This document shows positions 9,727 to 44,733 of a stretch of 64,000 bases of DNA, piece after piece. The position numbers were made by a program, and so were the translations under genes. Location of the stretch: NCBI GenBank assembly GCA_024690425.1, contig JAILCT010000258.1:1-64000 (forward strand), given 5' to 3'. This DNA comes from Lachnospiraceae bacterium. GTDB taxonomy: Bacteria > Bacillota_A > Clostridia > Lachnospirales > Lachnospiraceae. Within the stretch, counting starts at the first letter, position 1, and the number at the start of each line of letters is the position of its first letter. Under the pieces are notes generated by a model. It was not told the DNA's origin, searched no databases, and worked only from the letters and a program-made list of their open reading frames with translations.

Positions 9727-9786
9727 GATCATTCCTCCTCTGTATTTGTTATTCGGGTAACTATTCGGTTTATTACTTATGTTAAA

Positions 9787-14740: not shown

Positions 14741-15115
14741 TTACTGTTTCCTTGATTCGTAGTCATCCAGTGCTGACTTTATGGCTTCCTCTGCAAGGAC
14801 CGAACAGTGCATTTTGTAATCGGGAAGACCGTCTAGTGCTTCTGCCACTGCTTTATTGGTAAGCTTCATTGCATCCGCAACGGGCTTGCCCTTGATAAGC
14901 TCGGTCGCCATTGAGCTTGATGCAATGGCACTTCCGCACCCGAATGTCTCAAACTTCACATCCTGTATAACATCATCTTCTATCTTCATATACATCTTCA
15001 TTATGTCTCCGCACTTGGCGTTTCCCACTTCGCCGATCGCATTGGCATCCTCTATAACTCCCACATTTCTGGGATTTCTGAAATGATCCATTACCTTTTC
15101 ACTGTATAATGCCAT
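14741..15115 (-). CDS. iscU: IscU/NifU-type Fe-S cluster scaffold
   Basis: The 124-residue scaffold protein has the three cysteine sites of the family: NAKCGD, FGCGSAIASSS and HCSVLAEE. It accepts sulfur from the cysteine desulfurase encoded just upstream. The length matches NifU-like clostridial scaffolds without the extra ferredoxin or Nfu domains. ATG at 15115 has AAGGAGG 5 nt upstream and lies 10 nt after the iscS stop. Confidence 0.92.
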   Translation of the reverse strand: MALYSEKVMDHFRNPRNVGVIEDANAIGEVGNAKCGDIMKMYMKIEDDVIQDVKFETFGCGSAIASSSMATELIKGKPVADAMKLTNKAVAEALDGLPDYKMHCSVLAEEAIKSALDDYESRKQ

Positions 15116-15125
15116 GACTTCCTCC

Positions 15126-16310
15126 TTATAAAATGAATTTACTCTTTCCTGCCACAAGGTCTCTCCACACCGGCGAAAAACCGCGCAGGTACTCAACAAC
15201 TTCCTTAACTGACTTAATGATATAGTCAACATCCCGATCGGTGATGTCCGCATCGATACTCAAACGAAGTGATCCGTGGGCCACATCATGAACCCTTCCT
15301 ATGGCAAGAAGAACATGGGATGGGTCGAGCGACCCGGATGTACAGGCCGATCCGGACGAAGCCTGAATTCCCTTGTCATCAAGGAGGAGCAGGAGTGATT
15401 CTCCCTCGATCCCCTCGAAACAGAAGTTGACGTTGCCCGGAAGCCTCTTTACGGCATCACCGTTAAGGGCCGAGTGCTCGATAGATCCAAGACCTTCAAT
15501 GAGCTTATCCCGCTCTTTGATAAGATGGGCCGAAGCTGCTTCCATTCCGGATACCGCTTCCTTAAGGGCACAGGCCATGGCTGCGATGCCGGGAACATTC
15601 TCGGTTCCCGCACGCCTTCCCTTCTCCTGTGCACCGCCTTCAATAAGGTTTACCGGCTTGATCCCCTTCCTTACGTACAGGAAGCCTACTCCTTTGGGGC
15701 CGTGGAACTTGTGAGCAGATGCCGACAGCATATCTATGTTGTCATCGTTCACATTTACCGGAATATGTCCTATAACCTGGACAGCATCAGTGTGGAAGAT
15801 AACTCCCTTTTTTCTGCATATAGCTCCTATTTCACGGATGGGCTGGATCGTACCTATCTCATTGTTGGCATACATGATGGTAACAAGTGAAGTGTCTTCT
15901 CTTATAGCCGCTTCCACTTCTTCCGGTCTTATAAGACCGTTCTCATGCACATCAAGCAGGGTTATCTCATATCCTTCCCTCTTGAGCTTATCAAGTGTAT
16001 GCAGCACTGCATGATGTTCGAAGGCAGATGATATGATGTGCATCTTCCCCTTCTGCTTTCCAAGGGCTGCAGCCGATAAGATAGCCTGATTGTCGGCTTC
16101 GCTTCCTCCCGATGTAAATATGATCTCACGAGGCTCGGCTCCCAATACATTTGCAACATCTTCCCTTGCGCCTTCCAGTATTTCCTTGGCCTTCTGTCCG
16201 AAGCTGTATAAGCTGGACGGATTCCCGTAATTGTCATTCATGACCGAGACCATTGTATCTATCGCCGCCTTGCTCATCTTTGTGGTTGCGGCATTATCTG
16301 CATATATCAA
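15126..16310 (-). CDS. iscS: Cysteine desulfurase IscS/NifS
   Basis: The 394-residue class V aminotransferase-fold enzyme converts cysteine to alanine and enzyme-bound persulfide. SAHKFHGPKG carries the PLP lysine (about residue 201) and SGSACTSGS the catalytic cysteine (about 323). The start is a TTG at 16310 (LIYADNAATT), with AGGAG 8 nt ahead. The longer frame from ATG 16379 would begin at the predicted transcription start itself and lacks a ribosome site. It heads an operon with iscU and a cysteine-synthase-like gene. Confidence 0.93.
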   Translation of the reverse strand: MIYADNAATTKMSKAAIDTMVSVMNDNYGNPSSLYSFGQKAKEILEGAREDVANVLGAEPREIIFTSGGSEADNQAILSAAALGKQKGKMHIISSAFEHHAVLHTLDKLKREGYEITLLDVHENGLIRPEEVEAAIREDTSLVTIMYANNEIGTIQPIREIGAICRKKGVIFHTDAVQVIGHIPVNVNDDNIDMLSASAHKFHGPKGVGFLYVRKGIKPVNLIEGGAQEKGRRAGTENVPGIAAMACALKEAVSGMEAASAHLIKERDKLIEGLGSIEHSALNGDAVKRLPGNVNFCFEGIEGESLLLLLDDKGIQASSGSACTSGSLDPSHVLLAIGRVHDVAHGSLRLSIDADITDRDVDYIIKSVKEVVEYLRGFSPVWRDLVAGKSKFIL

Positions 16311-16381
16311 AGTAGTTTCTCCTTTCTTACTTTTCTTATGACTTGTCCCTGGCTTTATCGGGGATTTACAGTATGCCATGG

Positions 16382-21428: not shown

Positions 21429-21450
21429 CCGAATCGAACAAAAAAATAAA

Positions 21451-21536
21451 ACGTGCTAGGGGTGCATTTTGCTGAGATGGACATTGTCCTAACCCTCATT
21501 ACTTGAACCGGGTAATACCGGCGTAAGGAAGCAATG
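21451..21536 (+). promoter_or_regulatory. TPP riboswitch (THI element)
   Basis: The conserved THI core elements are all present in order: CTAGGGGTGC, GCTGAGATGG, the CCTAACCCT segment, ACTTGAACCGGGTAATACCGGCG and the closing AAGGAAGCA. TGCT (21454-21457) can pair with AGCA (21530-21533) as the P1 stem. It precedes a thiamine transporter gene and should lower its expression when thiamine pyrophosphate is abundant. Confidence 0.96.
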
Positions 21537-21555
21537 ATCATATGATGGATTATGT

Positions 21556-21583
21556 ACCTCCTGCACGTAGATACGCAGGAGGT
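21556..21583 (+). promoter_or_regulatory. Ribosome-site sequestering hairpin for thiT
   Basis: ACCTCCTGC (21556-21564) pairs perfectly with GCAGGAGGT (21575-21583), which contains the Shine-Dalgarno site 6 nt before ATG 21590. No T-run follows, so TPP control is probably at translation initiation. Confidence 0.82.
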
Positions 21584-21589
21584 TCTATT

Positions 21590-26121: not shown

Positions 26122-27402
26122 TTATACTGCCGCGAATCCTTTTTCAAGGTCTGCGATGATATCGTCAATATGCTCGGTTCCGATCGACAATCTTATCGTA
26201 CTCTCCTCGATGCCGGTTTCCTTAAGAGCTTCAGCTGACAACTGCGAATGAGTAGTTGACGCCGGGTGTATGACCAGACTCTTAACATCGGCAACGTTCG
26301 CAAGCAGGGAGAATATCTTAAGATTGTCGATGAACCTCCAGGCTTCCTCACGTCCGCCCTTTATATCAAATGTAAAGATCGAACCTCCGCCGTTGGGGAA
26401 ATACTTCCTGTATAGTGCATGCTGGGGGTGATCCTCGATCGAAGGATGGTTCACCTTAACTACCTTCGGGTGATTTTTCAGGAAATCGATCACCTTGATG
26501 GTATTCTCAACATGTCTCTCAAGACGGAGGGAAAGAGTCTCAACACCCTGAAGAAGAAGGAAAGCATTAAAAGGTGATATGGCTGCTCCGGTATCCCTTA
26601 AGATGACGGCTCTTATATACGTTGTAAATGTTGCAGGGCCTAATGCATCATAGAAGGCCAGGCCATGGTAGCTCGGGTTTGGGTCAGAAAGCTGAGGATA
26701 TTTGCCGCTTGCCTTAAAGTCGAACTTGCCAGATTCTACGATCACACCGCCAAGGGTCGTGCCGTGGCCGCCGATGAACTTGGTTGCCGAATGAACCACT
26801 ATGTCTGCACCATGCTCGATAGGTCTTATAAGGTAAGGAGTTCCGAAGGTGTTGTCGATCACGAGGGGAAGTCCGTGCTTATGAGCTATCTCGGCAACTG
26901 CGTCGATATCCGGGATATCGCTGTTGGGATTTCCGAGAGTCTCAAGGTAGATCGCCCTTGTGTCATCCTTTATAGATGCTTCGACAGCCTTGAGGTCATG
27001 GATATTTACGAAGGTTGTCTCGATGCCAAGCTGTGGAAGTGTGTTGGCCAGAAGGTTGTAGCTTCCGCCATATATGGTTTCCTGGGCTACTATATGTCCG
27101 CCGCCGAGTGCCAGAGCTTCGATCGTATATGTGATGGCTGCCGCTCCCGATGCTACTGCCAGTGCCGATGTGCCGCCTTCAAGGGCTGCCAGCCTCTGCT
27201 CAAGAACCGCCTGTGTCGAATTGGTGATCCTTCCGTATATATTGCCTACTTCTGCCAGACCAAACCTTGCTGCTGCACTTGCGCTGTCCTTAAATACATA
27301 TGATGTTGTCTGGTAAATGGGAACCGCCCTTGCATCAGACGCCGGATCCGGCTCTTCCTGTCCCACATGTAACTGTAATGTCTCAAATCTGTAATCGCTC
27401 AT
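26122..27402 (-). CDS. metY: O-acetylhomoserine sulfhydrylase
   Basis: The 426-residue PLP enzyme makes homocysteine from O-acetylhomoserine and sulfide. FETLQLHVGQEEPDP at the N-terminus, YGRITNST, ETIYGGSYNL, DNTFGTPYLIRP and SATKFIGGHG (PLP Lys208) are typical of the 420-430-residue MetY group, longer than MetB. ATG at 27402 has GGGAGGG upstream. It is driven from LysR-type promoter copy 4 and probably runs into lysR. Confidence 0.93.
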   Translation of the reverse strand: MSDYRFETLQLHVGQEEPDPASDARAVPIYQTTSYVFKDSASAAARFGLAEVGNIYGRITNSTQAVLEQRLAALEGGTSALAVASGAAAITYTIEALALGGGHIVAQETIYGGSYNLLANTLPQLGIETTFVNIHDLKAVEASIKDDTRAIYLETLGNPNSDIPDIDAVAEIAHKHGLPLVIDNTFGTPYLIRPIEHGADIVVHSATKFIGGHGTTLGGVIVESGKFDFKASGKYPQLSDPNPSYHGLAFYDALGPATFTTYIRAVILRDTGAAISPFNAFLLLQGVETLSLRLERHVENTIKVIDFLKNHPKVVKVNHPSIEDHPQHALYRKYFPNGGGSIFTFDIKGGREEAWRFIDNLKIFSLLANVADVKSLVIHPASTTHSQLSAEALKETGIEESTIRLSIGTEHIDDIIADLEKGFAAV

Positions 27403-29815: not shown

Positions 29816-31033
29816 CTACGCCAATTCTTTTATCCGGTCTACCGCTTCAACTGTGTTTTCATAGCTTCCGAAGGCCGTCAGCCTGAAATAACCCTCTCCG
29901 TGGGGACCGAATCCCGATCCCGGGGTTCCCACAACATTGGCTTCCCTGAGCAGATAGTCAAAAAAGTCCCAGCTTGTCATCCCGTCGGGTGTCTTAAGCC
30001 ATATATAGGGCGCATCCACACCGCCCGAAACCGTAAATCCCGCTGACCTCAATCCTTCCAATATATATGAAGCATTTCTCATATAGTAGTCAACAAGACC
30101 CCTGATCTCCTTCTGCCCCTCCTGCGAATACACGGCCTCACCGGCCTTCTGTACGATATAGGGGGCTCCGTTATACTTGGTCCCGTGCCTCCTTGCCCAG
30201 AGGGCATGAAGCTTGATACCACCTCTATCAAGATCTTTTGGGATGACCGTGTAACCGAGTCTGAGTCCCGTAAAGCCGGCATTTTTGGAAAAGGAATGCA
30301 GCTCGATGGCACAAGACCTTGCCCCCCTGCATTCATAGATCGAGTGCGGAACACCCTCTGTCCTTATATACGCTTCATAGGCCGCATCGTATATGATGAT
30401 CGATCCGTGCTCATTGGCATGATCAACCCACTTCTGGAGTTCTTCCTTATTTATCACCGCTCCTGTAGGATTATTCGGAAAGCACAGGTATATAAGGTCA
30501 GGTATTTCCTGCGGCAACTGCGGTGCAAAATCATTCTCCTCAAGGCAGGGCATATATATGATATCAGTAAATCCCTCTGTTTTGGTATCGTAGATCCCGC
30601 CGCGGCCTGCCATCACGTTGGAATCAACATAAACGGGATATACGGGATCGCACACCGCCACTTTCGAGTCAAGGGCAAATATCTCCTGGATATTCCCGCA
30701 GTCGCACTTGGCCCCGTCGGATACAAATATCTCATCAGGCTCGATATCACAGCCCCTTGCCTTGTAATCATTCTCCGAAATGGCCTTCCTTAAGAATTCA
30801 TAGCCAAGGTCCGGCGCATAACCCTTAAAGGTCTCCGCCTCTCCCATCTCATCGACCGCATCATGCAGAGACTTTATTATTGCAGGAGTAAGCGGCTGCG
30901 TCACATCCCCGATCCCAAGCCTTATCACCTTCCTGTCAGGGTTTTCCTTAATGAAAGCATTCACCTTTTTACCTATGTTCGAGAAGAGATAACTTCCCGG
31001 CAGTTTAAGATAATTATCATTTATTCTTACCAT
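29816..31033 (-). CDS. dapL: LL-diaminopimelate aminotransferase
   Basis: The 405-residue class I/II aminotransferase has the DapL signature regions: NDNYLKLPGSYLFSNI at the N-terminus, IRLGIGDVTQPL, VSDGAKCDCGNIQ, CFPNNPTGAV and SFSKNAGFTGLRLG with the PLP lysine. DapL turns tetrahydrodipicolinate directly into LL-diaminopimelate, by-passing the acylated intermediates. It follows dapF by 69 nt on the same strand, so the two lysine and cell-wall enzymes form an operon. ATG has AAGGAGG upstream. Confidence 0.95.
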   Translation of the reverse strand: MVRINDNYLKLPGSYLFSNIGKKVNAFIKENPDRKVIRLGIGDVTQPLTPAIIKSLHDAVDEMGEAETFKGYAPDLGYEFLRKAISENDYKARGCDIEPDEIFVSDGAKCDCGNIQEIFALDSKVAVCDPVYPVYVDSNVMAGRGGIYDTKTEGFTDIIYMPCLEENDFAPQLPQEIPDLIYLCFPNNPTGAVINKEELQKWVDHANEHGSIIIYDAAYEAYIRTEGVPHSIYECRGARSCAIELHSFSKNAGFTGLRLGYTVIPKDLDRGGIKLHALWARRHGTKYNGAPYIVQKAGEAVYSQEGQKEIRGLVDYYMRNASYILEGLRSAGFTVSGGVDAPYIWLKTPDGMTSWDFFDYLLREANVVGTPGSGFGPHGEGYFRLTAFGSYENTVEAVDRIKELA

Positions 31034-31102: not shown

Positions 31103-31915
31103 CTATAATTCGATCTCTCCATCAAATACCGTAGCCGCAGGCCCCGTCATATACACATGGTTATCCTTTTCATCCCATTCTATGAGGATATCACCACCCA
31201 ATACATGCACCGTGACCGCTCTGTCGGTATATCCGTTGAGCACACAGGCTACAGCCGTTGCGCAACAGCCGGTACCGCAGGCCAGGGTCTCCCCGGTACC
31301 CCTCTCCCACACTCTCATATGGACATTGTTTCTGTCATCAACCCTGACAAACTCAGCATTTGTCCTGTTTGGAAAAGCTTCATGATATTCAAACCGGGGG
31401 CCTATGCTTTCTATATCAAGACCATTTGGGTCAATGAACATGACGGCGTGAGGATTGCCCATGGAAACGCATGTCATGTGATATTCCTTTCCGTCCACCA
31501 GGATCGGAGAATTTATGAGCTCCGGATCAAATACCGGCTCCCCCATATCAACACGAATCATCTTAGCTCTGCCATCCTTAGCCGTGATATGGATTGGCTT
31601 GACCTTGCCGAAGCTTTCTATGGCAATATCACATTTATCAGTCATCCCGTGATCATAAACGTACTTGGCCACGCATCTTATCCCGTTTCCGCACATCTCG
31701 GATCTCGACCCGTCCGCATTATACATCTCCATTTCAAAGTCAGCCTTATCGGAAGGATTTATAAAAATGACTCCATCCGATCCAATCCCGAAGTGCCGGT
31801 CGCTGGCTTTTATTACAAAATCCCTCTTCTTATCCTGACTGATCTTCTGGGCAAATCCGTTTATATACACATAATCATTGCCGCATCCATGCATTTTGGT
31901 AAATTCGATCTTCAT
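31103..31915 (-). CDS. dapF: Diaminopimelate epimerase
   Basis: The 270-residue enzyme interconverts LL- and meso-diaminopimelate. It has both catalytic cysteine motifs, EMCGNGIRC and ACGTGCCA, and the start TKMHGCGNDYVY. ATG at 31915 has AGGAG 7 nt upstream; the longer frame to 32098 runs through a terminator hairpin. First gene of the dapF-dapL pair. Confidence 0.95.
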   Translation of the reverse strand: MKIEFTKMHGCGNDYVYINGFAQKISQDKKRDFVIKASDRHFGIGSDGVIFINPSDKADFEMEMYNADGSRSEMCGNGIRCVAKYVYDHGMTDKCDIAIESFGKVKPIHITAKDGRAKMIRVDMGEPVFDPELINSPILVDGKEYHMTCVSMGNPHAVMFIDPNGLDIESIGPRFEYHEAFPNRTNAEFVRVDDRNNVHMRVWERGTGETLACGTGCCATAVACVLNGYTDRAVTVHVLGGDILIEWDEKDNHVYMTGPAATVFDGEIEL

Positions 31916-31934
31916 ATCATTTCTCCTGCTCTGC

Positions 31935-31972
31935 AAAAAAAGGGTGCCCGGACCTAAATCCGAGCACCCTTG
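31935..31972 (-). terminator. Rho-independent terminator after the small membrane-protein pair
   Basis: A 13-bp stem with one mismatch (31940-31952 with 31959-31971), followed on the minus strand by seven T residues (31941-31935). It lies between the 32023 gene stop and the dapF start. Confidence 0.88.
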
Positions 31973-32022
31973 CTCAACGTGATTAATATAAATCTTTTGT
32001 ACTATTTCGTCAACCCTGAATA

Positions 32023-32340
32023 TTATACTTGCGTCTTCTTCATAAGGCTGGCCCTGATAACGCCCTTGGGATCCAGGATGAGAAGCCTCACAAGCCATAT
32101 GACAAGTCCCAATGCCACAGCGGAAAGTCCCAGAAACGTATCGTTAAGCATGTCCTCAACCGCAGGCGTGAAATACTCTGCCCCAAGTTCAGCATATTCA
32201 AAGATCGCATCCACAAGCCACATAAGAGATGCTCCCCAGTACATAAACAGAAGGATGCCAAGCTTCATGGAATCATCTTCCCTTTTATACCATTTAACCG
32301 TAGCAGCGACTGCCGCAAATACTGTAATAAGTAAAGTCAT
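32023..32340 (-). CDS. Small membrane protein, unknown
   Basis: The 105-residue protein has three likely membrane helices (about 2-15, 27-45 and 68-90) with an acidic loop between the second and third. I do not recognise a family. It follows the 132-residue membrane protein by 20 nt with its own GGGAGGG site and ends before a strong terminator, so the two form an isolated bicistronic unit. Confidence 0.65.
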   Translation of the reverse strand: MTLLITVFAAVAATVKWYKREDDSMKLGILLFMYWGASLMWLVDAIFEYAELGAEYFTPAVEDMLNDTFLGLSAVALGLVIWLVRLLILDPKGVIRASLMKKTQV

Positions 32341-32870: not shown

Positions 32871-33659
32871 TCATGATCCTTCCCTGTCTCCTTCATCCCC
32901 ATCAGGCTTTGCCTTACGGTACAGGGTCTCAAAATCCTTGTCATAGAGCCTGCTCAGCTCGTATTCGCTGTCAAGGACATTACCCACTATGATAAGGGCT
33001 GTCCTCTCGATACCGTTCTCTTCCATGTCCCTGACCATATCATCAACAGTCGTATAGATGATCTTCTCATCCGGCCAGGTGGCCTTATATACCACGGCAA
33101 CAGCCGTATTCCCCGGATATCCCCCTGCCTTTAAGTCATCGCTTACCTTCTGCGCCATTCCGGATGAAAGGAAAAGCACCATTGTCGACCCGTGGACCGC
33201 CATGTCTTTAAGCTCCTGGCCGCGCGGGACTCCTGTACGTCCTTCCGCACGCGTGATTATTATGCTCTGGGAGACTCCCGGCAGGGTATACTCTGCCCTG
33301 AGTGCAGCCGCAGCTCCCGACATCGAACTGACTCCGGGACATATATCGTACGGGATCCCTTCCTCATCCAGGATGTCCATCTGTTCCCTGATCGCTCCGT
33401 ATATAGACGGGTCTCCGGTGTGCAGCCGCACCAGCTCCCCGTCGCAGTCCTTCATGACCTGTATTATCTCCTCAAGGTTCATATGGGCGCTGTTATATAC
33501 AAGACAGCCCTCACGGGCAAAATCAAGCAGGGCCGGATTGACCAAAGATCCGGCATATATGATAACGTCAGCCTTTTCTATAAGTTCTTTTCCCCTTACA
33601 GTGATAAGATCAACCGCTCCGGGTCCCGCTCCGACAAAATGAACCATATGACCATCCAC
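32871..33659 (-). CDS. cobM: Precorrin-4/cobalt-precorrin-4 C11-methyltransferase
   Basis: The 262-residue SAM-dependent tetrapyrrole methylase has VHFVGAGPGAVDLITVRG, YAGSLVNP, HTGDPSIYGA, CPGVSS and ALRAEYTLP. The YAGSLV and DPSIYGA forms are typical of CobM/CbiF. It methylates C11 in corrin ring formation, oxygen-independent in anaerobes. No other ring-forming cob/cbi genes are nearby; cobT is at 50.3 kb. ATG 33659 or 33647 are both possible starts. Confidence 0.9.
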   Translation of the reverse strand: MDGHMVHFVGAGPGAVDLITVRGKELIEKADVIIYAGSLVNPALLDFAREGCLVYNSAHMNLEEIIQVMKDCDGELVRLHTGDPSIYGAIREQMDILDEEGIPYDICPGVSSMSGAAAALRAEYTLPGVSQSIIITRAEGRTGVPRGQELKDMAVHGSTMVLFLSSGMAQKVSDDLKAGGYPGNTAVAVVYKATWPDEKIIYTTVDDMVRDMEENGIERTALIIVGNVLDSEYELSRLYDKDFETLYRKAKPDGDEGDREGS

Positions 33660-34912: not shown

Positions 34913-35671
34913 ATGTACAATTTTGATGCAGAAAAAACAATGAACGAATGTGTCGAATGGATACGCGACTTCTTCAGAAAAAACGGACCGGACTCTCCGG
35001 CCGTCATAGGTATATCCGGAGGCAAGGACTCAACCGTTACAGCGGCCCTGTGTGTTGCGGCTCTTGGCTGCGACAGGGTGATAGGCGTGCTCATGCCGAA
35101 CGGAGTCCAGGCTGATATAAACGATTCCATCGCAGTTGTTGAGCATCTTAAGATCAAAAACTTCACAATAGACATTAAGGACGCCGTTTCGGCTATCCTC
35201 AAAGAAATGGAAGATAAGGGTATACCCATATCAGACCAGTCAAGGATCAACCTTCCGCCGCGCATCAGGATGTCCACACTTTATGCGGTTTCTCAAAGTC
35301 ATAACGGGCGTGTTGCAAACACATGTAATTTATCTGAGGATTGGGTCGGATATTCTACCAGATACGGCGATGCGGCAGGCGATTTCTCACCTCTTGCACA
35401 TCTTACCGTCACCGAGGTGAAGGAAATAGGCCGTCTCCTTAAGCTTCCGTCCTTCCTCGTTGACAAGGCTCCTTCGGACGGGCTGTGCGGCAAGACCGAT
35501 GAGGACAACCTTGGTTTCAGATATGCAACTCTTGATAAGTATATCCGCGAGGGAGTGATAGAAAGTGAAGCGGATAAGGCTATAATAGACAAAAAGCATG
35601 TTCAGAACCTGTTCAAGCTTCAGGTTATGCCCGGGTTCAGCTCAGGCCTTCCTGAAATCCCGCAGGTCTGA
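34913..35671 (+). CDS. nadE: NAD synthetase, ammonia-dependent
   Basis: The 252-residue enzyme amidates deamido-NAD. It has the N-type ATP pyrophosphatase loop GISGGKDST, plus RMSTLYAVSQSHNG, NTCNLSEDWVGYSTRYGD and DKAPSDGLCGKTDEDNLGF. There is no glutaminase domain, so ammonia is the nitrogen donor. AGGAGGG lies 6 nt before the start. Only 5 nt separate its stop from the convergent DtxR-type regulator. Confidence 0.95.
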   Translation: MYNFDAEKTMNECVEWIRDFFRKNGPDSPAVIGISGGKDSTVTAALCVAALGCDRVIGVLMPNGVQADINDSIAVVEHLKIKNFTIDIKDAVSAILKEMEDKGIPISDQSRINLPPRIRMSTLYAVSQSHNGRVANTCNLSEDWVGYSTRYGDAAGDFSPLAHLTVTEVKEIGRLLKLPSFLVDKAPSDGLCGKTDEDNLGFRYATLDKYIREGVIESEADKAIIDKKHVQNLFKLQVMPGFSSGLPEIPQV

Positions 35672-36201: not shown

Positions 36202-37464
36202 TTATTTCCATATCCCCGGCCAAATATTATCGCACAGATCTCTGCAGCGTTCCACGGAAAATAAGCTGTCCTGCTTTAAGATTTCATTTGACCCGGCCAG
36301 TCTGTCATCGTAATCCTTCAGCCTGTATACCGCCAATTCATCTCTGCTTTTACTCAGATGAGTAACAAGGGCTTCCACATCATTATCCTTTATTGTCACC
36401 CGTCCGTCTTCATCGCGACCGACCCGGACTCTCGCCATTCCTCCCACCAGCCTGTTCCCGACATTCTCGCCCTTGCCGGATGTCCAGTTGACGAAGTTGC
36501 CTATGGAATAGTAGACCAGCATCCTGTTCCCGTTGACTCCATCATCCATCCATTCAACAGGCTGGATGACATGCGGATGTGTTCCTATCACAAGATCTGC
36601 TCCGTTATCCATAAAGATATCTGTCCATTCCCTCTGTTCGTCAGATGGTTCATAGTCATATTCGATCCCCCAGTGAGGACAGACTATAGTAAAATCAGCC
36701 TCTTTTTCCGCTCGCTCCAGGTCACTTATGACTTCATCTTTTTTCAGCCGGTTGACTGAATATCTGTCTCCGCCCGAAATATTGACTCCATTAGTACCAT
36801 AGGTATAGTTAAGTATCGCAATTCTGACACCCGTTCTTTCCACAACCGCTATCTCTTTCTCCCGTTGACTGTCACTTATGCCGACGATCGTTACATCCGG
36901 GTGATTTTCACCCCAATAGGTGACGCAATTGACCAATCCCGTCTCTCGACGGTCATACACATGATTGGTCGCGTGACACACAACATCAAAACCGGTTGAT
37001 GCCAGTTCATCAGCTATTTCAAACGGAGCATTAAAGGACGGGTATCCGGTCACCCCCAGCTCTTTTCCACCTATGATAACTTCCTGGTTTACTATCGCAA
37101 TATCCGACTCCCTTATTTCATTACGTACGTTTTTAAATAATCCCGAATAATCGTAGTCTCCATCTTCAAGCCGGCAGGTCTTGTTTATTCCGTCATGGAG
37201 CAGGATATCTCCTACCATAACTATCGATATTGTATCTTCTTTGCTTGGCTTTGAAGCAACAGGGGACGGCTCTGCAGGTCCATTATCAGAACTTACAGAG
37301 TCGTCCCCATGTATCATATCATTCTCTGGCCTGTCTGCCTCAGCATTCTCTGACAGGGATGCGGCATGAAATCCTTCTTCCGGCCGGACCGCATTCCCGG
37401 TGCATCCGCACAGGCATACGGTAAGTATGATCCAGAATAATGATCTTACGCCTTTCCTAATCAA
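36202..37464 (-). CDS. CapA-family (PGA_cap) lipoprotein, metallophosphatase-like
   Basis: The protein of about 420 residues has a lipoprotein signal ending CLCGC and a low-complexity linker, then a CapA/PgsA domain. That domain has VMVGDILLH, NQEV, YPSFNAP, CHATNHVYDR, CPHWGIEY, GTHPHVIQP and YSIGNFV. CapA proteins belong to the metallophosphatase superfamily and serve poly-gamma-glutamate capsule export, but most paralogues have no proven role. A TTG start at 37464 (8 nt after AAGG) places it inside the end of the S1-domain gene; an in-frame GTG at 37491 is the alternative. It is the third gene of the rep-S1-capA unit. Confidence 0.82.
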   Translation of the reverse strand: MIRKGVRSLFWIILTVCLCGCTGNAVRPEEGFHAASLSENAEADRPENDMIHGDDSVSSDNGPAEPSPVASKPSKEDTISIVMVGDILLHDGINKTCRLEDGDYDYSGLFKNVRNEIRESDIAIVNQEVIIGGKELGVTGYPSFNAPFEIADELASTGFDVVCHATNHVYDRRETGLVNCVTYWGENHPDVTIVGISDSQREKEIAVVERTGVRIAILNYTYGTNGVNISGGDRYSVNRLKKDEVISDLERAEKEADFTIVCPHWGIEYDYEPSDEQREWTDIFMDNGADLVIGTHPHVIQPVEWMDDGVNGNRMLVYYSIGNFVNWTSGKGENVGNRLVGGMARVRVGRDEDGRVTIKDNDVEALVTHLSKSRDELAVYRLKDYDDRLAGSNEILKQDSLFSVERCRDLCDNIWPGIWK

Positions 37465-38365
37465 ACTTGAATCCCTTAAGAAGGTCACCAAGTCCGGTAC
37501 CGATAGTCTCGTTTGACGAATACTTCTGAGCTTCTATAGAAGATTCCTCGCCACTTCCTTCTTCTTCAGCCGCAGCCTTGATGCTAAGGCTTATCTTGCC
37601 TTCATTGGTATTCAATATCTTCACCCTGACCTTATCGCCCACCTTAAGTACTTCGGAAGGCTTCTTAATCCTGAATTCACTGATCTGCGAAATATGAACC
37701 AGGCCACTCAGCCCGTCGCCTATATCAACAAAAGCTCCAAATGTCTGCAGGCTCTCAACAACACCATCAGTTATTGTTCCCGGAGCAAGCATTGCTATCT
37801 TATGATCATGTTCTTCTTTCAGCCTCTCCTTAAGCACTTCCTTCGCTGACAGGATCAGCTTCTTTTTGTCGCCGTTAACTTCCGTGACCCGCACGGTCAA
37901 CTTCTTCCCCTGGAAGGAATCGAGATCTTCAACATATGAAACATCCAGCTGGGAAGCAGGGATAAAACCCCTTATTCCCTCGACATACGCAACAGCTCCA
38001 CCCTTGACTACCTGAGTTATCTTTACCGGTATCTCCTTCTTTTCTTCCATATACTGCTTCAGTACATCCCATGCCAGTACGGCATTTGCCTCTTTTTTAG
38101 ATAACACTATGTTGCCATTACCGTCATCGGTCTTTATAACTGTAGCTTCGATCTCATCCCCGATCTTTACATCGTCAAGGATCGAAAATCCGGGATCATC
38201 ACTTAAATCCCCAGCCTTTATTATTCCCTGGGTATAATACTTAAGATCCAGCGTTACTTCTTCATCTGTAACATCGATTACGGTTCCCTTGATAACATCG
38301 CCCTCATTTATTGTACGGAACGACGCCTCAAGCTCTCTTTCATAGTCCTTCATTGATTCTTCCAT
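37457..38365 (-). CDS. Ribosomal S1-like RNA-binding protein with three S1 domains
   Basis: The 302-residue protein has three S1 repeats, at about 19-90 (GDVIKGTVIDVTDEEVTLDLKY), 105-175 (GGAVAYVEGIRGFIPASQLD) and 193-262 (GVVESLQTFGAFVDIGDGLSGLVHISQIS). An acidic tail follows. It resembles the short S1 proteins of Firmicutes that bind mRNA and assist translation. It begins 20 nt after the replication initiator gene on the same strand with a GGGGG site, so it is likely co-transcribed with rep. That is an unexpected partner, and might reflect a role in replicon or transcript control or a carried housekeeping copy. Confidence 0.88.
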   Translation of the reverse strand: MEESMKDYERELEASFRTINEGDVIKGTVIDVTDEEVTLDLKYYTQGIIKAGDLSDDPGFSILDDVKIGDEIEATVIKTDDGNGNIVLSKKEANAVLAWDVLKQYMEEKKEIPVKITQVVKGGAVAYVEGIRGFIPASQLDVSYVEDLDSFQGKKLTVRVTEVNGDKKKLILSAKEVLKERLKEEHDHKIAMLAPGTITDGVVESLQTFGAFVDIGDGLSGLVHISQISEFRIKKPSEVLKVGDKVRVKILNTNEGKISLSIKAAAEEEGSGEESSIEAQKYSSNETIGTGLGDLLKGFKFD

Positions 38366-38385
38366 TGGTCTTATCCCCCTTTATT

Positions 38386-39582
38386 TTACTGAAGAGCTGC
38401 CCTCTCCAATTCTTCATAATCATATTTTCTCTGGTCAAAGTCATTAAATCCGCTTCTGATCACGGTCTTCTCATTAGGCTTTATCTGATTGTTTATCGCC
38501 CATATCATAAAAGCAGTATATGAAGTCTTGAATTCCCGCTGCTGCCTGGCTGCCTCATGTGCGATCTTCACCTTCTCAAGGTCATAACCTGCAGCCTTTA
38601 TTATGGCCCTGCAGTCCGCAACCCTGATCCTTTCTATCTCATAAGCAAGGTCAAGAACTTCATCGACAAGATCATCCTCATTGTATTCCATTAAAGGTGT
38701 ATTGTCTTCTATCTTATGCTCTTCGTTCTTTACCCCGGCAGGTGTCTTGTCAATGTAGAAATACAGCGACTTTATCCTTCCGCCCTTTCCTTCCCGGGCC
38801 GATGGCTCATAACTTACTTTAAGTTCTGTCTTTTCATTGATCTCATCAACCGCCTTGTCAATGGTCCTTTTAAAATGACGCCAGTCATCATTAGTCTGTT
38901 CCTTAACCTTCTCAAGCGCCTTGTTATAGTCGGGTGTCCCGCTTATGGAATTCTTGGAAGTCTCGATAAGCGTCTTCTTCACGCCGCCCACTTCTATATT
39001 GATCGTTCCCATCTCGAATTTAAGCTCAGCAACATCGATATCAACTACTATTTTATTGGGATCCCTGGCTGTTTCCCCTTTTGGAATATAGGCCTTGGAT
39101 TTGAGTATTTCATATAATCTCAGAGAATAATTGGACTTGAATGAAGTGACCACGCCAAGGTCGAGTACCGTAAAGTTGTTGGTAAGCTGTATCAGCTTAT
39201 CCTTCATCTCCGGAGCAAACCTTATGGTAAGTTCATTATTTTCATATTTTGCCTTAGTGATGAGCGGAACATATTCGAATGATTCAGTGTCCGGATTGGA
39301 ATAGCCCATTACACGGCCGGATAACATTTCCGCAGTCTTGTCAAGATTGGAGAAGTAAGTACCTGCCTTCCAGCCCATTAGCTTACTGAGCTGAGACCTT
39401 GACATCCTTACTATAACGGATCCTTCGGCATCAACTTCACCGTTCTTTACATTAGCTATGGCACAGTTAAGAAGTTTATTCTCAGTGATAGTAGACTTGT
39501 ATTTGGCAGATATTAATGCATTACCCTTGGAATACCTAATACCCGGAGAATAGAATTCGAGCTTTTCATTATTATTTTTCAT
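38386..39582 (-). CDS. Rep_3-like plasmid/chromid replication initiator
   Basis: The 398-residue protein fits the Rep_3 (RepB/RepE) winged-helix initiator layout. An N-terminal domain has KGNALISAKYKSTITENKLLNCA and SRSQLSKLMGW. A second winged helix holds NYSLRLYEILKSKAY, a hallmark segment of the family, and RTIDKAVDEINEKTELKVSYE. A C-terminal extension of about 110 residues is less conserved. It faces away from a 780-bp AT-rich region with repeats and a DnaA box, the presumed origin. Family assignment is by motif reading and should be confirmed by HMM. Confidence 0.85.
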   Translation of the reverse strand: MKNNNEKLEFYSPGIRYSKGNALISAKYKSTITENKLLNCAIANVKNGEVDAEGSVIVRMSRSQLSKLMGWKAGTYFSNLDKTAEMLSGRVMGYSNPDTESFEYVPLITKAKYENNELTIRFAPEMKDKLIQLTNNFTVLDLGVVTSFKSNYSLRLYEILKSKAYIPKGETARDPNKIVVDIDVAELKFEMGTINIEVGGVKKTLIETSKNSISGTPDYNKALEKVKEQTNDDWRHFKRTIDKAVDEINEKTELKVSYEPSAREGKGGRIKSLYFYIDKTPAGVKNEEHKIEDNTPLMEYNEDDLVDEVLDLAYEIERIRVADCRAIIKAAGYDLEKVKIAHEAARQQREFKTSYTAFMIWAINNQIKPNEKTVIRSGFNDFDQRKYDYEELERAALQ

Positions 39583-39984
39583 ACATCCCCCTGTGTTGTT
39601 GCTTTTTTATAATAACAACATCTTTATTAATTATTTATATGCCCCGAAACCCTGTAAATATAGGAAAAAACCGATTTACTCATCCCTCATTATTTATAAA
39701 ATCGGCCCTCTTTTATTAAGAGGATATCCATATGTGTTTATGAAGATGTACCATAAAATTTATGGGCAAATTAAACCTTGATCAATATGAATATATACCC
39801 CCCGTTGTACTTACTTGTACCAACATTTTTAGGGGAAAGGCTTAACTCGTACCATCTTTTTTACCTTGTACAAATATGTTGTATCATATCCGGGTGAAAA
39901 CATCAAGATATTGATTTAAATTTGTACCATCTTTTTTATAGAAAAATTATGGGCATTATTAAATGCGGTATAAAAATTATTAAC

Positions 39985-40352
39985 TTTGCCCATTATTTTT
40001 ACGATATGAATCTTTACCATGTGATCATGCCCATAATAAATAAAAACAATGCCCGCTTTTTTTACGGCAGCTCTTTTTAGCTTGGCTTTTGTGGATAAAA
40101 GGTGTTCATTAGACTTAAAAACCGGAAAATATGGGGATTTATCAACATTTTTTTGAAAGAACAGACAAAAAGGAGAGCATTGATTATATATCGGAAAGTC
40201 AAAAGAAAGAATGAAATACCATAAAATTTACAAATATAGCCCTAAATTTTTATCACAGGCCCGGATTTATGACCAACAATGCCTGTTATTTTTATGATGA
40301 AAGCCTATAATGCCCGGTTTTGAGGGAAACTTTGCCCTAAAACTTTACGACA
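39985..40352 (+). repeat. Iteron-like direct repeats, four imperfect copies
   Basis: Units at 39985-40010, 40048-40069, 40278-40300 and 40331-40352 share a TTTGCCC or AATGCCC start, a T-rich middle and an ending TTTACGA or TTTATGA. Shorter inverted matches (TATGGGCA) occur near 39761 and 39948. They could be binding sites for the initiator. Confidence 0.6.
40090..40098 (-). promoter_or_regulatory. DnaA box
   Basis: TGTGGATAA is the exact reverse complement of the consensus DnaA box TTATCCACA. A one-mismatch box TTATCAACA lies at 40139-40147 on the plus strand. Both lie within the presumed origin. Confidence 0.7.
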
Positions 40353-40362
40353 CCTGTTCGTA

Positions 40363-40971
40363 TTAATGACGTTTGTTCTTACTTTCGGCTATAAGCCTGT
40401 CAAGATATTTCTCATACTCTGCTCCTGACATGAACTCGTCATAGTAGTAGTCAGCGTCTTTTACAGGACCGGCATCAGATTCAGAAGATACAGGCAATTG
40501 ACCAATTGGGTCAGAACCATTTATCCGGTCAGTAGATGAATAACGCTTGATATAAATAGATGGCTGCGTGCGGATATATTCCACAGAAGAAGCAAGCCTT
40601 ATATATTTACCAAGATCCAGCATATGGAATTGCCGGAGGATCATTAGTTTAATATATGAAGGTGTTCTGTTCTTTCCTGAATACCAATCCTCTATAGTCC
40701 TTATTGGAATACAAAAAATATGGGAAATATCGCTCTTTTTGGCACCGGCAGCTTCAAGAAGGTCCTTAAAAGACATATTCTTGGCTTCATACAGCTCTCT
40801 AAGAAGATACAAACACTCCTGGTATGTGATCCCGTATGCATCATAGTTAAATATTGAAGTGTCCGTAGATAAGGATGAAACATACTGATCAGACAGATCA
40901 TAGTCATCAACAGCATTCCAGAGCTTATGAAATACTCTGTCAGGGATGATCTTAAGCCTTTTTTTCCTCAT
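40363..40971 (-). CDS. HTH protein between origin and partition region
   Basis: The 202-residue protein is of unknown family. Residues about 65-115 look like an XRE-type helix-turn-helix: FKDLLEAAGAKKSDISHIF, then IPIRTIEDWYSGKNRTPSYI. The C-terminal 60 residues are polar and likely flexible. ATG at 40971 has GGAGG 5 nt upstream. It points towards rep across the origin, and could regulate rep or copy number. A role is inferred from position only. Confidence 0.7.
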   Translation of the reverse strand: MRKKRLKIIPDRVFHKLWNAVDDYDLSDQYVSSLSTDTSIFNYDAYGITYQECLYLLRELYEAKNMSFKDLLEAAGAKKSDISHIFCIPIRTIEDWYSGKNRTPSYIKLMILRQFHMLDLGKYIRLASSVEYIRTQPSIYIKRYSSTDRINGSDPIGQLPVSSESDAGPVKDADYYYDEFMSGAEYEKYLDRLIAESKNKRH

Positions 40972-41340
40972 TTATACCTCCGTGAAACACGATTTTTGAT
41001 CGAAAACTAAGAAAAACACCACGGAATACGTGGATTACAATAAGAATTATATCCATAAAAACAAATAATTACAAGCATCTTAAAACTAAAAATAGTATAA
41101 GAATGTTTCACAAAAACCGGAACTAAGAGATAATACCACGTAACGCGAGGATATAAAATAACAAAAAGGTATAAACATAAGGCTTTCGGCCAAATAAAAT
41201 AATTATTAGATTCTGTTTGTTTTTCGCTGTCTGATACAAAAATATCCTCTATAATGTTCGTTTTCTCCTGCTTTTTGCTCTTCGCCTGTTTTTTGACCCA
41301 AAATCCTAATCTATAAGGAATTTAACACACATATAAAATA
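40972..41340. other. Non-coding AT-rich spacer
   Basis: No gene is seen. The stretch is AT-rich, contains the ribosome site and promoter region of the HTH gene, and leads into the repeat field that starts near 41341. Confidence 0.6.
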
Positions 41341-42134
41341 ATAAATTGCTAAATAGAGTTATATAATTAGCGATTTATTGAATAAATAAACTGCTAAAAC
41401 AATAAATATATAAACTGCAAAAATAGTAAACGACCGGCTATAAATAATTAAATAAACTGATAAACATAAAATAACTAAACTATAAATATATAAACCGGTA
41501 AACTAATAAACATATAAATCATATCATTTCTTTAGTAAATTCGGAAGAGGAAAAAATGGGTACTAAATAGTAATTAAATAAACTTGTAAATAGAAAAACA
41601 ATAAGTTTAAAAATTTACACAGAAAGGTTATTCGGGTCCAGGGAAAAGAAAAAATAAATAAACTGAAAAATGGATACATAAAAAACCAAATATATAAACT
41701 GCTATATTATAAAACCATCATTGTAAAGACTTTTCTTTATTGTTTAGTGTGATAGATCCTGTACACAGATATTGCAGCGTTGGACATACCGATCATCTGA
41801 GCGTGGTTATAAGTACTAATAAATAAGTACATATAGGAAGGATATATATAAAGCAAGTAAAAGCAAAATAGTAATATAATAATTAACCAGTTTATATAAT
41901 TTGTAATTATATAAACAATTACAATGATAAGAGTGACAGTTGATCAACGGGAAGTCTAAAGATATTACTAAACCAGTAAATTATAGTTTGTTAAATTAAA
42001 GTTTTGTAAATATCTATATTATTAAACACAAAAACATATAAACTAATAAACTAAACAATTCTCAACAATTAAATAAACTGATAAACGGAAAATATCATAA
42101 AATAAATAATAAATTTTATAAACTGATAAATTGG
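41341..42134. repeat. Partition-site-like field of TAAACTG repeats
   Basis: About a dozen irregularly spaced, mostly same-strand copies of ATAAACTGATAAAC-like units fill this extremely AT-rich region upstream of parA. TAAACTG itself occurs exactly at 41387, 41411, 41453, 41657, 41696, 42074 and 42119; others are variants such as TAAACCGGTAAAC (41491). No gene is seen here. A centromere (parS/parC) bound by the AT-hook protein encoded after parA is the likely reading. Confidence 0.65.
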
Positions 42135-42207
42135 TTCTTGCAAAATTATGTTAACTATGTTAGTTTAATCTTATAAATTTAGTGAAAATCAAAAATGGAG
42201 GAATGAA

Positions 42208-42972
42208 ATGTCGGTAATAATAGCATTAGCCAACCAGAAGGGAGGCGTCGGCAAGACTACCAGTACGATAGAACTGGCGGCCTGCTTCGAGAACAGAGGA
42301 TATAAAACTCTTGTAGTAGATCTTGAACAGCAGATGGATACAACCAAGTACTGCGGCGGAGATCCCTTTAAATCAGGATGTTACAAGGTTTTGAAGGAGG
42401 AAATGGATATAAGGGATGCGATCCAGCAGACGGAGGAATTTGATCTTCTTCCGGCAACCCCTGAACTGAGCAAGGCGGATGATGAATTCACAAAGCCTAC
42501 TGATGTGCTTAAGCTGAAGAAGGCACTTAAGGCCATAGAAGATGACTATGATTTCGTTGTAATAGATACCAATCCGGGCAGAAACAGGCTCCTTAATATG
42601 GCTTATATAGCCTCGGATTACGTGATAATCCCCACGGATGCTGATGATGGCTCTGTTTCCGGTATTATATCGATATTTGACGATCTCAAGGAATATAAGG
42701 AAGCGGGTTGGACTGATTCGGATGTGATGGGAATTATCCTTACCAGATATGAGAATACATCCATGCACAGATACCAGGAAGAGGTGATACGTGAGCTTAT
42801 AGAGGTTAAGCAGCCCGATGCATTCTTCATGAACGTGCGTAAGGCTATTGCGGCATCTGAGTGCAAAACTGAGAGAACCAGCCTGCAGAGGGGCAAGAGG
42901 AGCTCCAAGCCTGCAATTGATTACAGGAACATAGCTGATGAGATCATAGACCGCTTAACAGAGGAGGATTGA
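42208..42972 (+). CDS. parA: ParA-family partition ATPase
   Basis: The 254-residue protein has the deviant Walker A KGGVGKTTST at residues 11-20 and the Walker B-like DFVVIDTNPGRNRLL. Like small type Ib ParAs it has no N-terminal HTH domain. It should form the motor for segregation of the replicon. It is followed 1 nt later by the gene for a small DNA-binding partner and preceded by the repeat field. AATGGAGGAATGAA gives a good ribosome site. Confidence 0.93.
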   Translation: MSVIIALANQKGGVGKTTSTIELAACFENRGYKTLVVDLEQQMDTTKYCGGDPFKSGCYKVLKEEMDIRDAIQQTEEFDLLPATPELSKADDEFTKPTDVLKLKKALKAIEDDYDFVVIDTNPGRNRLLNMAYIASDYVIIPTDADDGSVSGIISIFDDLKEYKEAGWTDSDVMGIILTRYENTSMHRYQEEVIRELIEVKQPDAFFMNVRKAIAASECKTERTSLQRGKRSSKPAIDYRNIADEIIDRLTEED

Positions 42973-42973
42973 A

Positions 42974-43492
42974 ATGGCACTGAAAGTTAAAAACCCTAAA
43001 AAGAACCTTGCGGATATATTGATCGAGAAGGAACGACTGAATGAGTCATATGATTCATCGTCGGCGGTAAGCCTGAAGACGCTCGAGTCAATACCTGAGA
43101 ATGAAGAACCGGAAGAAGACAAGCAGATCCAAGAAATATCGGGGGTAGAGACAAAGAAAGAGAATGATAGACCAAATGAGTCAATCGGTCAAAATATTGA
43201 AAAGCAGGTCATAAATGAACCCAGTAAGCCGGTTCTCGCGGATGTTTCGGGTGACGCGGTAAGAAGACCCATATATGATATGGAAGATTACAATCCGCCA
43301 AGAAAGAAAAGGGGACGTCCGTACCAGGGATACGCAGAGAATACACATGTACAGTCGATCTATGTAAGAAACGATCTCTACGAATATATAATGATAAATT
43401 ACGTGGGACACGGAAGAAAGCATACGTCATTCAATAAATTCGTAAATGCCGCGATCAATAATTACTTAAGAATGCTTGATGAAGAAAGATAG
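42974..43492 (+). CDS. AT-hook plus ribbon-helix-helix partition partner (ParB-like)
   Basis: The 172-residue protein has a long acidic, likely disordered N-terminal half. It then has an AT-hook core (KKRGRPYQ) near residue 112 and a C-terminal segment compatible with a ribbon-helix-helix fold: a strand HVQSIYVRNDLYEYI, then TSFNKFVNAAINNYL. It does not resemble classical ParB, but small RHH proteins are the usual partners of type Ib ParA. The AT-hook fits the AT-rich repeat field upstream of parA. It is in operon with parA. Confidence 0.78.
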   Translation: MALKVKNPKKNLADILIEKERLNESYDSSSAVSLKTLESIPENEEPEEDKQIQEISGVETKKENDRPNESIGQNIEKQVINEPSKPVLADVSGDAVRRPIYDMEDYNPPRKKRGRPYQGYAENTHVQSIYVRNDLYEYIMINYVGHGRKHTSFNKFVNAAINNYLRMLDEER

Positions 43493-43500
43493 GATATAAA

Positions 43501-43530
43501 AACGATCGGGGGCATCAGCCCTCGATCGTT
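43501..43530 (-). terminator. hsp20 terminator
   Basis: A 13-bp stem (43501-43513 with 43518-43530, one G-U pair) with a 4-nt loop. On the minus strand it is followed by TTTTTATAT. The loop and one arm include the last codons and stop of hsp20, and it also separates this gene from the convergent partition operon. Confidence 0.85.
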
Positions 43531-43958
43531 ATGTATTTGGTCTCCGGAACTTCCGGCTTTAATTCCTTTTTTGGAACGGATATCTTCAGAATACCGTCTT
43601 CGTATTTAGCCTTGATATCCTCCTGAGTAACTGCTTCGCCTACATAGAAGCTTCTTGAAGATCTGCCGTAGTAGCGCTCGCGCCTGATGAAGTTACCCTT
43701 GTCATCATTCTCGTTTTCTTCGTGCTTGCTCTCGGCGCTGATGGTCATATAACCTTCCTTGAGCTCGATCTTCAATTCGTCCTTTTTGTGACCGGGAAGC
43801 TCTACCGCAAGCTCGTATCCGGATTCATTCTCCTTGATATCGGTCTTCATGAGACCCGGTTCCGGCCCCTTTACAGGCCGCTGCGGTCTTGCGGGATAAT
43901 GGAAGTTATCAAAAAGATCATCAAATAAGTTCTCTGCAAAAATACTTGGCATCAACAT
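43515..43958 (-). CDS. Hsp20/alpha-crystallin small heat-shock protein
   Basis: The 147-residue chaperone has an alpha-crystallin domain at about 38-135 (YELAVELPGHKKDELKIELKEGYMTISAE) with the family A-x-x-x-n-G-v-L motif as AKYEDGILKISVPK. The N-terminus has FDDLFDNF. It holds unfolding proteins during heat stress. A perfect CIRCE element over its promoter indicates HrcA control. AGGAGG lies 7 nt ahead of the ATG. Confidence 0.95.
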   Translation of the reverse strand: MLMPSIFAENLFDDLFDNFHYPARPQRPVKGPEPGLMKTDIKENESGYELAVELPGHKKDELKIELKEGYMTISAESKHEENENDDKGNFIRRERYYGRSSRSFYVGEAVTQEDIKAKYEDGILKISVPKKELKPEVPETKYITIEG

Positions 43959-44043: not shown

Positions 44044-44056
44044 GTTTGAGTGCTAA
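44030..44056. promoter_or_regulatory. CIRCE element (HrcA operator)
   Basis: TTAGCACTC (44030-44038), a 9-nt spacer and GAGTGCTAA (44048-44056) match the CIRCE consensus exactly. It overlaps the hsp20 promoter and lies 38 nt before thiN. Confidence 0.97.
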
Positions 44057-44094
44057 CAAAAATTGTGAACTTTTTGTGTTCTAAGGAGAAAACC

Positions 44095-44733
44095 GTGGAA
44101 AAGCTTAGCTGCCTTATCATATCCGGGGGAAGATTCGCGGCGGTACCGGATGAAATTCTCAAAACCGACCTTGTGATCGCATGCGATTCGGGGTTGGATC
44201 ATGCAGACAGATACGGAATCATTCCTGATATCGTACTTGGTGATTTTGACTCGATTTCGGATAAAAACCGTGACCGTCTGTCAAAGGGCGAATTCAAGAT
44301 TGTGCGTTATCCAAAAGAAAAAGATGATACAGATACGGCACTTGCCATGAAACACGCTCTTGACCTTGGTTGTAAGGATATAAGAATGGTGTCTGTTTTC
44401 GGAAACAGGATGGATCATTCCATCGCAAATATACAGACAGCTCATTACGGCGCGGAACATGGTGCAATAGTCAGGATGTATGATGAAGATACTGAGATAA
44501 TCGTATTTTCGGGGACCGAAGCTACCGTTCCCGCAAGAGAGAGCTACGGACTGTCTGTTTTTGCGCTTTCGGATGCGTGCAGGGGAGCAAGCATAAAGGG
44601 GACACGTTATGAAATTGAGGATGCGGAGCTTGTAAATTCATTCCCCCTAGGACAGAGCAATGAGTTTAAGGGTAAGGAAGCCGTTATCACGGTTAAAGAG
44701 GGAACAGCGATGGTGGTCCTGTCAAGACAGTGA
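44095..44733 (+). CDS. thiN: Thiamine pyrophosphokinase
   Basis: The 212-residue enzyme makes thiamine pyrophosphate from thiamine and ATP. It has ACDSGLDHADRYGIIPDIVLGDFDS, split here as CDSGLDHA and VLGDFDSIS, then KDDTDTALAMKHAL and FGNRMDHSIANIQ, all typical of TPK catalytic domains. The GTG start at 44095 has AAGGAG 6 nt upstream; the longer frame would begin inside the CIRCE element. It completes the thiamine salvage route with ThiT. Confidence 0.92.
   Translation: MEKLSCLIISGGRFAAVPDEILKTDLVIACDSGLDHADRYGIIPDIVLGDFDSISDKNRDRLSKGEFKIVRYPKEKDDTDTALAMKHALDLGCKDIRMVSVFGNRMDHSIANIQTAHYGAEHGAIVRMYDEDTEIIVFSGTEATVPARESYGLSVFALSDACRGASIKGTRYEIEDAELVNSFPLGQSNEFKGKEAVITVKEGTAMVVLSRQ

Follow-up and report, generated by a model that had tools for sequence, protein, structure and literature searches.

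The 64,000-nucleotide stretch analyzed here (Lachnospiraceae bacterium contig JAILCT010000258.1; hereafter the window) harbors a compact locus in which a Rep_3-type initiator gene, a putative origin, a gene for a helix-turn-helix (HTH) protein, a repeat field and parA with a small partner gene lie together. We conclude that this locus very probably provides origin and partition functions for a chromid-type secondary replicon, which would be separate from the main chromosome. The conclusion is carried by a strand-asymmetry origin at the rep/par genes, by a Rep-nadE-cobM-dapF-dapL linkage kept in a second species, G001 (the metagenome-assembled genome (MAG) Lachnospiraceae bacterium UBA3641), and by the single occurrence of dapL and nadE in that genome. 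These results uphold the secondary replicon with core genes that had been proposed in a preceding sequence-only reading. That reading had drawn the module at 36202..43492; its parts were found at 38386-43492, and the left portion (36202-38365) consists of neighboring genes (PGA_cap, S1) outside the module. The module comprises the following parts (aa, amino acids; GC, guanine plus cytosine):

38386..39582, minus strand: Rep_3-type replication initiator, 398 aa (PF01051, Rep3_N, E 1.9e-26; PF21205, Rep3_C, E 2.7e-8)
39583..40362: putative origin, 780 bp, 32% GC, with two iteron-like motifs and an exact DnaA box at 40090-40098
40363..40971, minus strand: HTH protein, 202 aa, kept in relatives
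40972..42207: AT-rich gap, 1,236 bp, 25% GC, proposed to serve as centromere and parA operator; 15 ATAAACTGATAAA-like repeats occupy 41333-42130
42208..42972, plus strand: ParA partition ATPase, 254 aa (AAA_31, E 3.5e-40)
42974..43492, plus strand: small ParA partner, 172 aa, proposed centromere-binding protein

Strand composition switches at this module. Cumulative GC skew of the 64 kb reaches its minimum at position 41530, between the HTH gene and parA. Plus-strand skew at third codon positions is -0.106 in the 10 plus-strand genes and -0.100 in the 27 minus-strand genes of the left arm, compared with +0.112 (16 plus-strand genes) and +0.138 (four minus-strand genes) in the right arm; since genes of both orientations display the switch, gene orientation does not account for it. 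Intergenic DNA behaves likewise (-0.147 left, +0.119 right). Gene orientation itself has its best breakpoint exactly at parA, accommodating 44 of 58 open reading frames (ORFs; permutation p 0.00035). We then inspected all of the 15 Rep-bearing stretches that had been fetched from related genomes (relatives are designated by G-numbers, their contigs by C-numbers). Eight of these extend at least ~3.4 kb on both sides of Rep, and seven of the eight turn from minus to plus within ~2 kb of Rep/ParA (G421, G418, G430, G427, G425, G381 and G136), the turn in the eighth, G268, being weak and noisy; the other seven stretches end close to Rep and are uninformative. As a positive control we used pNP243 of Butyrivibrio fibrisolvens D1, a circular record of 242,710 bp, in which the skew is lowest at rep and highest near 130-135 kb, about half way round. 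Therefore, the locus behaves as an origin, unlike a dead remnant. That rep and par might be inactive leftovers, a caution attached to the sequence-only reading, is disfavored by the intact genes and by the skew switch at the locus.

Both Rep_3 winged-helix domains, Rep3_N and Rep3_C, were detected in the intact 398-aa initiator, as anticipated from the sequence. ParA carries a deviant Walker A motif (KGGVGKTT) near its N-terminus, and its best solved relative is a segregation protein (1wcv, E 1.8e-24); the predicted pairing with a small partner was recovered as two adjacent genes (42208-43492). Pfam and NCBIfam scans of the 202-aa HTH protein gave no match. Its predicted model (mean predicted local distance difference test score 80) retrieved mostly XRE-type HTH proteins, judged by title, among the top Foldseek rows, with a best E of just 0.41, weakly in line with the HTH assignment made beforehand. 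We propose this protein as a copy-control or auxiliary initiation regulator.

The ParA partner gave no match in a Pfam scan. An alignment of 24 rows, two of which lack most of the C-terminal part, reveals a nearly invariant N-terminus followed by a linker of variable length, the motif KKRGRP and a conserved C-terminal stretch; in G001 (contig C33) the partner is intact, with a longer linker. The predicted model is of low confidence and places helices at residues 12-28, 133-144 and 153-171, two of them within the conserved C-terminal part, and comparisons of this model with the PDB returned nothing informative. The partner would bind DNA. As a hypothesis, we take it to consist of a ParA-stimulating N-terminus, an AT-hook, for which the KKRGRP motif presumably accounts, and a small DNA-binding domain; an AT-hook would suit the AT-rich repeat field. 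The arrangement resembles ParA systems with a small centromere-binding partner, presumably those of type Ib, in its short ParA, small downstream partner and repeats upstream of parA. It differs from them in the lack of a Pfam match for the partner, in the long variable linker and in the KKRGRP motif. The model was too weak to place the partner among ribbon-helix-helix centromere-binding proteins, which have a strand-helix-helix dimer fold.

Both gaps in the module are poor in GC (32% upstream of rep, 25% upstream of parA, versus 46% in both arms of the window) and rich in repeats. The gap upstream of rep contains two motifs, TTTGCCCATWATTTTTA and GTACCATCTTTTTTA, in three copies each (up to three mismatches), and the gap upstream of parA contains 15 copies of ATAAACTGATAAA (up to two mismatches), a motif with 10 occurrences in the remaining 61,375 bases of the window. 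None of 300 dinucleotide shuffles of each gap reached the observed counts, although these tests overstate the surprise, the motifs having been chosen after viewing the window and G001. The same three motifs occur in G001 in 7, 5 and 7 copies (0/300 shuffles each), and the third is present twice in a short further G001 piece (1/300 shuffles). Blocks of 40 columns starting at 39741 and 39901 are 88% identical between the origin gaps of the window and G001, compared with 68% over all aligned gap columns, and this conservation around the motifs is better support for the repeats than the shuffles. The DnaA box at 40090-40098 is weak evidence and not significant alone: the window contains two exact boxes where 0.61 are expected, 16 of 100 shuffles reach two, and G001 differs by one base at this position. 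Of the AT-rich, repeat-bearing origin with a DnaA box that had been read from the sequence, low GC content and repeats thus stand, as does the repeat field before parA, whereas the box is present in a number that is not significant. Repeats of the type TTTCTACGTTAAA lie beside a different Rep in G415 and, by eye, in G400. In G415 (C99), nadE, a regulator gene and PGA_cap run into 3.5 kb of DNA (L100 12408-15965) with 27% GC, next to the PGA_cap gene and without an ORF above 90 aa, perhaps origin or centromere DNA.

The genes around the module are largely of a housekeeping kind:

14741..16379, minus strand: nifU/iscU-type scaffold and nifS/iscS-type desulfurase genes, cargo (nifU over its NCBIfam cut-off)
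29816..31033, minus strand: dapL, LL-diaminopimelate aminotransferase, core cargo (TIGR03542, 1.4e-179, over cut-off)
31103..32098, minus strand: dapF, diaminopimelate epimerase, core cargo
32871..33659, minus strand: cobM/cbiF, cargo (over its NCBIfam cut-off)
34913..35671, plus strand: nadE, NAD+ synthase, core cargo (TIGR00552 over cut-off)
36202..37491, minus strand: PGA_cap family protein, adjoining S1 in the window, G001, G408 and G417
37457..38365, minus strand: S1-domain protein, 302 aa, adjoining rep
43515..43958, minus strand: Hsp20, first gene to the right of the par genes
44050..44733, plus strand: thiamine pyrophosphokinase (TPK), next to hsp20 in G001, G400, G415 and G431

Together with a cobT-type gene, which is also among the flanks, all neighbors named in the sequence-only reading were found, four of them (dapL, nadE, cobM and nifU) over NCBIfam cut-offs. 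Their base composition is similar, as had been stated: the window has 45.5% GC with 46% in both arms, and chromosome-type contigs of G001 have 45-49%. The 45.5% of the window exceeds the 39-40% given for Butyrivibrio genomes in three of the papers with passages on chromids, PMC5716241, PMC6249431, PMC2914790, PMC7523725, PMC12456017, PMC6090056 and PMC11237740. The left arm further contains a sulfur amino acid cluster, made up of three cysteine synthase-like genes (8794-9801, 13799-14710 and 22322-23254) and cystathionine synthase/lyase-type enzymes (23344-24495 and 26122-27402). A thiamine pyrophosphate riboswitch (21448-21546, plus strand) immediately precedes a gene for a thiamine transporter (Thia_YuaJ, 21542-22321), with TPK on the same replicon.

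Linkage of the module to core genes is kept in G001. A pattern search of genome contigs gave 47 matches, one of which encodes a Rep relative (90% identity), on G001 contig C95 (DFKQ01000066.1, 36,186 bp). C95 carries HTH, Rep, S1, PGA_cap, the regulator, nadE, cobM, two small proteins, dapF, dapL and a chemotaxis receptor, as well as metY, a LysR gene and others, partly reordered and with insertions, at protein identities of 62-96% to the window. Contig C33 holds genes for an S33 hydrolase, a GGDEF protein, an aldo-keto reductase, TPK, Hsp20, the partner and ParA (96%), and C37 contains genes from both arms of the window. In G001, nadE has a single match, on C95; the one close dapL is on C95 too, its frame broken in two there, perhaps by a MAG error. 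Two additional genes lie between HTH and rep on C95 (L033 1284-2602), one for an HTH_3 protein and one for a protein of 259 aa that has no Pfam match; they look like a HipBA-type pair. The same contig encodes a protein of 928 aa that joins an EF-G-like GTPase to a YacP-type NYN domain (L033 12040-14826), with a relative of 66% identity on the G431 contig that carries glmS and dapL.

In a wider set, Rep matches at E<=1e-3, including short and weak ones, were found in 28 of 397 family genomes and in 14 of the 37 genomes of the G001 genus, and protein searches returned 43 Rep, 43 HTH and 23 partner relatives. A listed Rep identical to that of the window probably stems from the window's own contig, which would then measure 86,973 bp. 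The HTH protein is also present beside Rep and ParA in G426. In G400, G415 and G431, a Rep of just 39-43% identity is located next to hsp20 and TPK, and G419 (C57, L089) encodes a ParA 86% identical to that of the window beside a Rep at just 29%. From the G419 pair, partition and replication genes appear to be exchanged between replicons. The last 30 Rep residues recur at 63-67% identity at the ends of other open frames (G408:C12, G419:C34), perhaps a shared tail that binds a host factor. When Rep and ParA were used to scan viral contigs, by a method that reaches close relatives only, no relatives were found, and a viral or phage-plasmid origin was set aside within that reach.

Two properties of chromids are represented in the data. 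The replication and partition system is of plasmid type (Rep_3, iteron-like repeats, ParA), and genes that are chromosomal elsewhere reside on the replicon: dapL and nadE are single on the Rep contig of G001, and dapL shares a contig with dnaA in G417 (38.7 kb) and G408 (137 kb). In both of these genomes dnaA is surrounded by rnpA, mnmE, mnmG and soj/spo0J, and in G408 by dnaN, recF and gyrB as well (all read from translations). A glmS-type gene, likewise read from its translation, adjoins dapL in G417 and G404 and lies within 2 kb of it in G408.

A plasmid integrated into the main chromosome, with rep/par as passenger or remnant among chromosomal genes, had been put forward as the alternative and appears improbable. 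It would account for housekeeping neighbors of chromosome-like composition, no closed circle was seen, and nadE, PGA_cap and S1 also occur together near a uvrB-like gene in G408. However, family scans covered 58 window ORFs (49 with Pfam, nine with NCBIfam only; seven without any family), and none of the 58 was named as an integrase or transposase, as the sequence-only reading had stated. A skew switch moreover requires long use as an origin, and plain insertion beside S1 would put TPK on the nadE side. Around dapL, the ORFs shared with the replicon contigs of the window and G001 at 50% identity or more number 1 of 16 in G417, 3 of 13 in G404 and 1 of 15 in G408, counts that include dapL itself (the ORF picker overlooked dapF of G417). 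Tests of the flanks in Rep-less relatives, with few flank genes in common, gave plain integration no support, and we rejected it, as it explains neither skew nor gene order. A dispensable megaplasmid with extra copies of core genes would be in keeping with the related Rep and ParA on Butyrivibrio proteoclasticus megaplasmids, with nadE-like and dapL-like genes on other plasmid records (164 and 455 records), and with G426, which has related Rep, HTH and ParA and a nadE context equal to that of Rep-less G404. We nevertheless consider it very improbable: neither dapL nor nadE has a second copy in G001, and the gene upstream of the glmS-type gene on G001 C2 is one other than dapL, unlike in G417 and G404.

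That the Rep_3 module replaced DnaA-oriC on the main chromosome itself is scarcely credible. It is suggested by nine near genomes, of which the six clear Rep carriers (G001, G400, G415, G419, G426 and G431) gave no dnaA match and the other three (G404, G417 and G408) did. Yet a query with the oriC region retrieved only short stretches, read as a gyrB paralog, from G001, G426 and G431, and these plus one 68% Soj-type match from G415; part of gyrB is left in G400, and in G419 most of the region is there, its contigs ending on both sides of the missing dnaA. Several of these MAGs lack the oriC region as a whole; the absence of dnaA is taken as assembly or binning loss, and loss of the gene in Rep carriers was rejected. 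Rep and dnaA occur together in G418, G425 and G430, and dnaA was also not found in 11 of the 23 Rep-less genus genomes. Detection of dnaA in just 16 of 37 genus genomes is a general warning against concluding that a gene is absent here; nadE turned up in 23 of the 37, 36 gave an aminotransferase match, and MAG gaps are accordingly common.

Three observations weigh against a chromid-type secondary replicon. Ten of the 14 Rep-matching genus genomes, G001 included, gave no dnaA match, and the coexistence of two origins in one genome therefore rests on other species. In G431, which has Rep, a single and perhaps chromosomal contig holds dapL and glmS ~18 kb apart, together with relatives of two replicon genes. 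Finally, the dinucleotide distance to five pooled chromosome-type contigs of G001 is 0.012 for the window and 0.033 for the G001 Rep contig C95 itself, the reference in both cases being a relative's contigs and not the window's own chromosome.

Gene order in congeners offers a possible account of how the chromid-type replicon arose. G408 C48 reads TPK(+), two genes, miaA, nadE(+), two genes, PGA_cap(-), S1(-), MBOAT, glycosyltransferase, uvrB, and G417 C52 has the same order without miaA and nadE (miaA, MBOAT, glycosyltransferase and uvrB are readings from translations). The window reads nadE(+), regulator, PGA_cap(-), S1(-), module, hsp20, TPK(+); here the module stands between the two ends of the G408 TPK-S1 block, and the four gene orientations are kept. 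A circle formed from the block and a plasmid origin gives the window order, which plain insertion does not. We tentatively consider, as a rather unlikely scenario, that the replicon was born when a chromosomal segment from TPK through nadE to PGA_cap and S1 circularized around the Rep_3/Par module in an F-prime-like manner. The different Rep beside the same hsp20-TPK pair in G400, G415 and G431 would, as part of such a capture, represent an origin swap in a kept backbone. TPK is 50% identical between window and G408 and 47% between G408 and G417, and PGA_cap ~50%, so that orthology of the block genes rests partly on position; linkage of nadE within the block was seen in G408 only. In the five genomes with a contig reaching past MBOAT on that side (G001, G415, G431, G419 and Rep-less G404), another gene takes the place that S1 has in G408 and G417, so that the move may have had either polarity. 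Trees built from 11 dapL rows and 15 nadE rows did not settle the branching and give no order for the gene moves. The traffic may also have run the other way, with genes of G408 and G417 going back from replicon to chromosome.

On the chromid-type replicon, Rep_3 would bind the iterons upstream of its own gene, open the AT-rich DNA and recruit the host replisome, with forks moving off to either side of the origin. Bound to the field of ATAAACTGATAAA repeats, ParA with its small partner would sort the copies, and the HTH protein probably regulates the module. The cell can probably not afford loss of the replicon, because it carries dapL, dapF, nadE and TPK. For this scheme we infer a separate circle, protein-DNA binding and essentiality.

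The window Rep shares Rep3_N, Rep3_C and iteron-like repeats upstream of rep with Rep_3 plasmids of the RepE/RepM type, but scores far below the NCBIfam cut-offs (RepM 70 of 250 bits, RepE 42 of 342 bits), and its replicon carries core genes. Within the same family, pNP243, termed a megaplasmid in a passage of PMC11237740, has a related Rep (35%), HTH protein (34%) and dapL (70%) besides its skew minimum at rep. It differs in an annotated pair of ParA and a ParB/RepB/Spo0J-family protein in place of the small partner, and has no match at E 1e-8 for nadE, cobM, TPK or nifS/nifU of the window. Other chromids or megaplasmids of Butyrivibrio and Pseudobutyrivibrio appear in sections of the respective papers: the chromid pINBov266 (PMC6249431), BPc2 (PMC2914790), BhuII (PMC5716241) and PxyII of Pseudobutyrivibrio (PMC7523725); BPc2, BhuII and PxyII are likened to the window replicon by literature, not by sequence. 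Chr2 of Vibrio cholerae, as portrayed in part of PMC6090056, likewise combines a plasmid-type iteron origin, its own partition genes and core cargo, but belongs to Proteobacteria and uses RctB, in contrast to Rep_3 in Clostridia. Among the rows shown for open-access literature (17 of 17, 15 of 26 and 10 of 32), no paper dealt with Lachnospiraceae chromids outside Butyrivibrio and Pseudobutyrivibrio; elsewhere in Clostridia, one entry on chromids names Clostridium butyricum. Large plasmid records of Selenomonas ruminantium (NC_017078.1, 57% identity) and Vescimonas fastidiosa (NZ_AP023416.1, 51%) carry nadE, and core genes may reside on secondary replicons in these other gut Firmicutes in a parallel manner.

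A chromid-type replicon of this kind is well supported and ordinary in kind, being already known from Butyrivibrio relatives. In G001 and the window, dapL and nadE lie beside a plasmid-type origin, and in two congeners dapL is on a dnaA contig. If the capture took place as outlined, congeners show the states before and after the birth of a chromid. As the location of dapL differs among congeners, exchange of genes between chromosome and replicon could be followed in this genus, which suits the study of essential-gene movement between chromosome and secondary replicon, and gene order makes the question testable.

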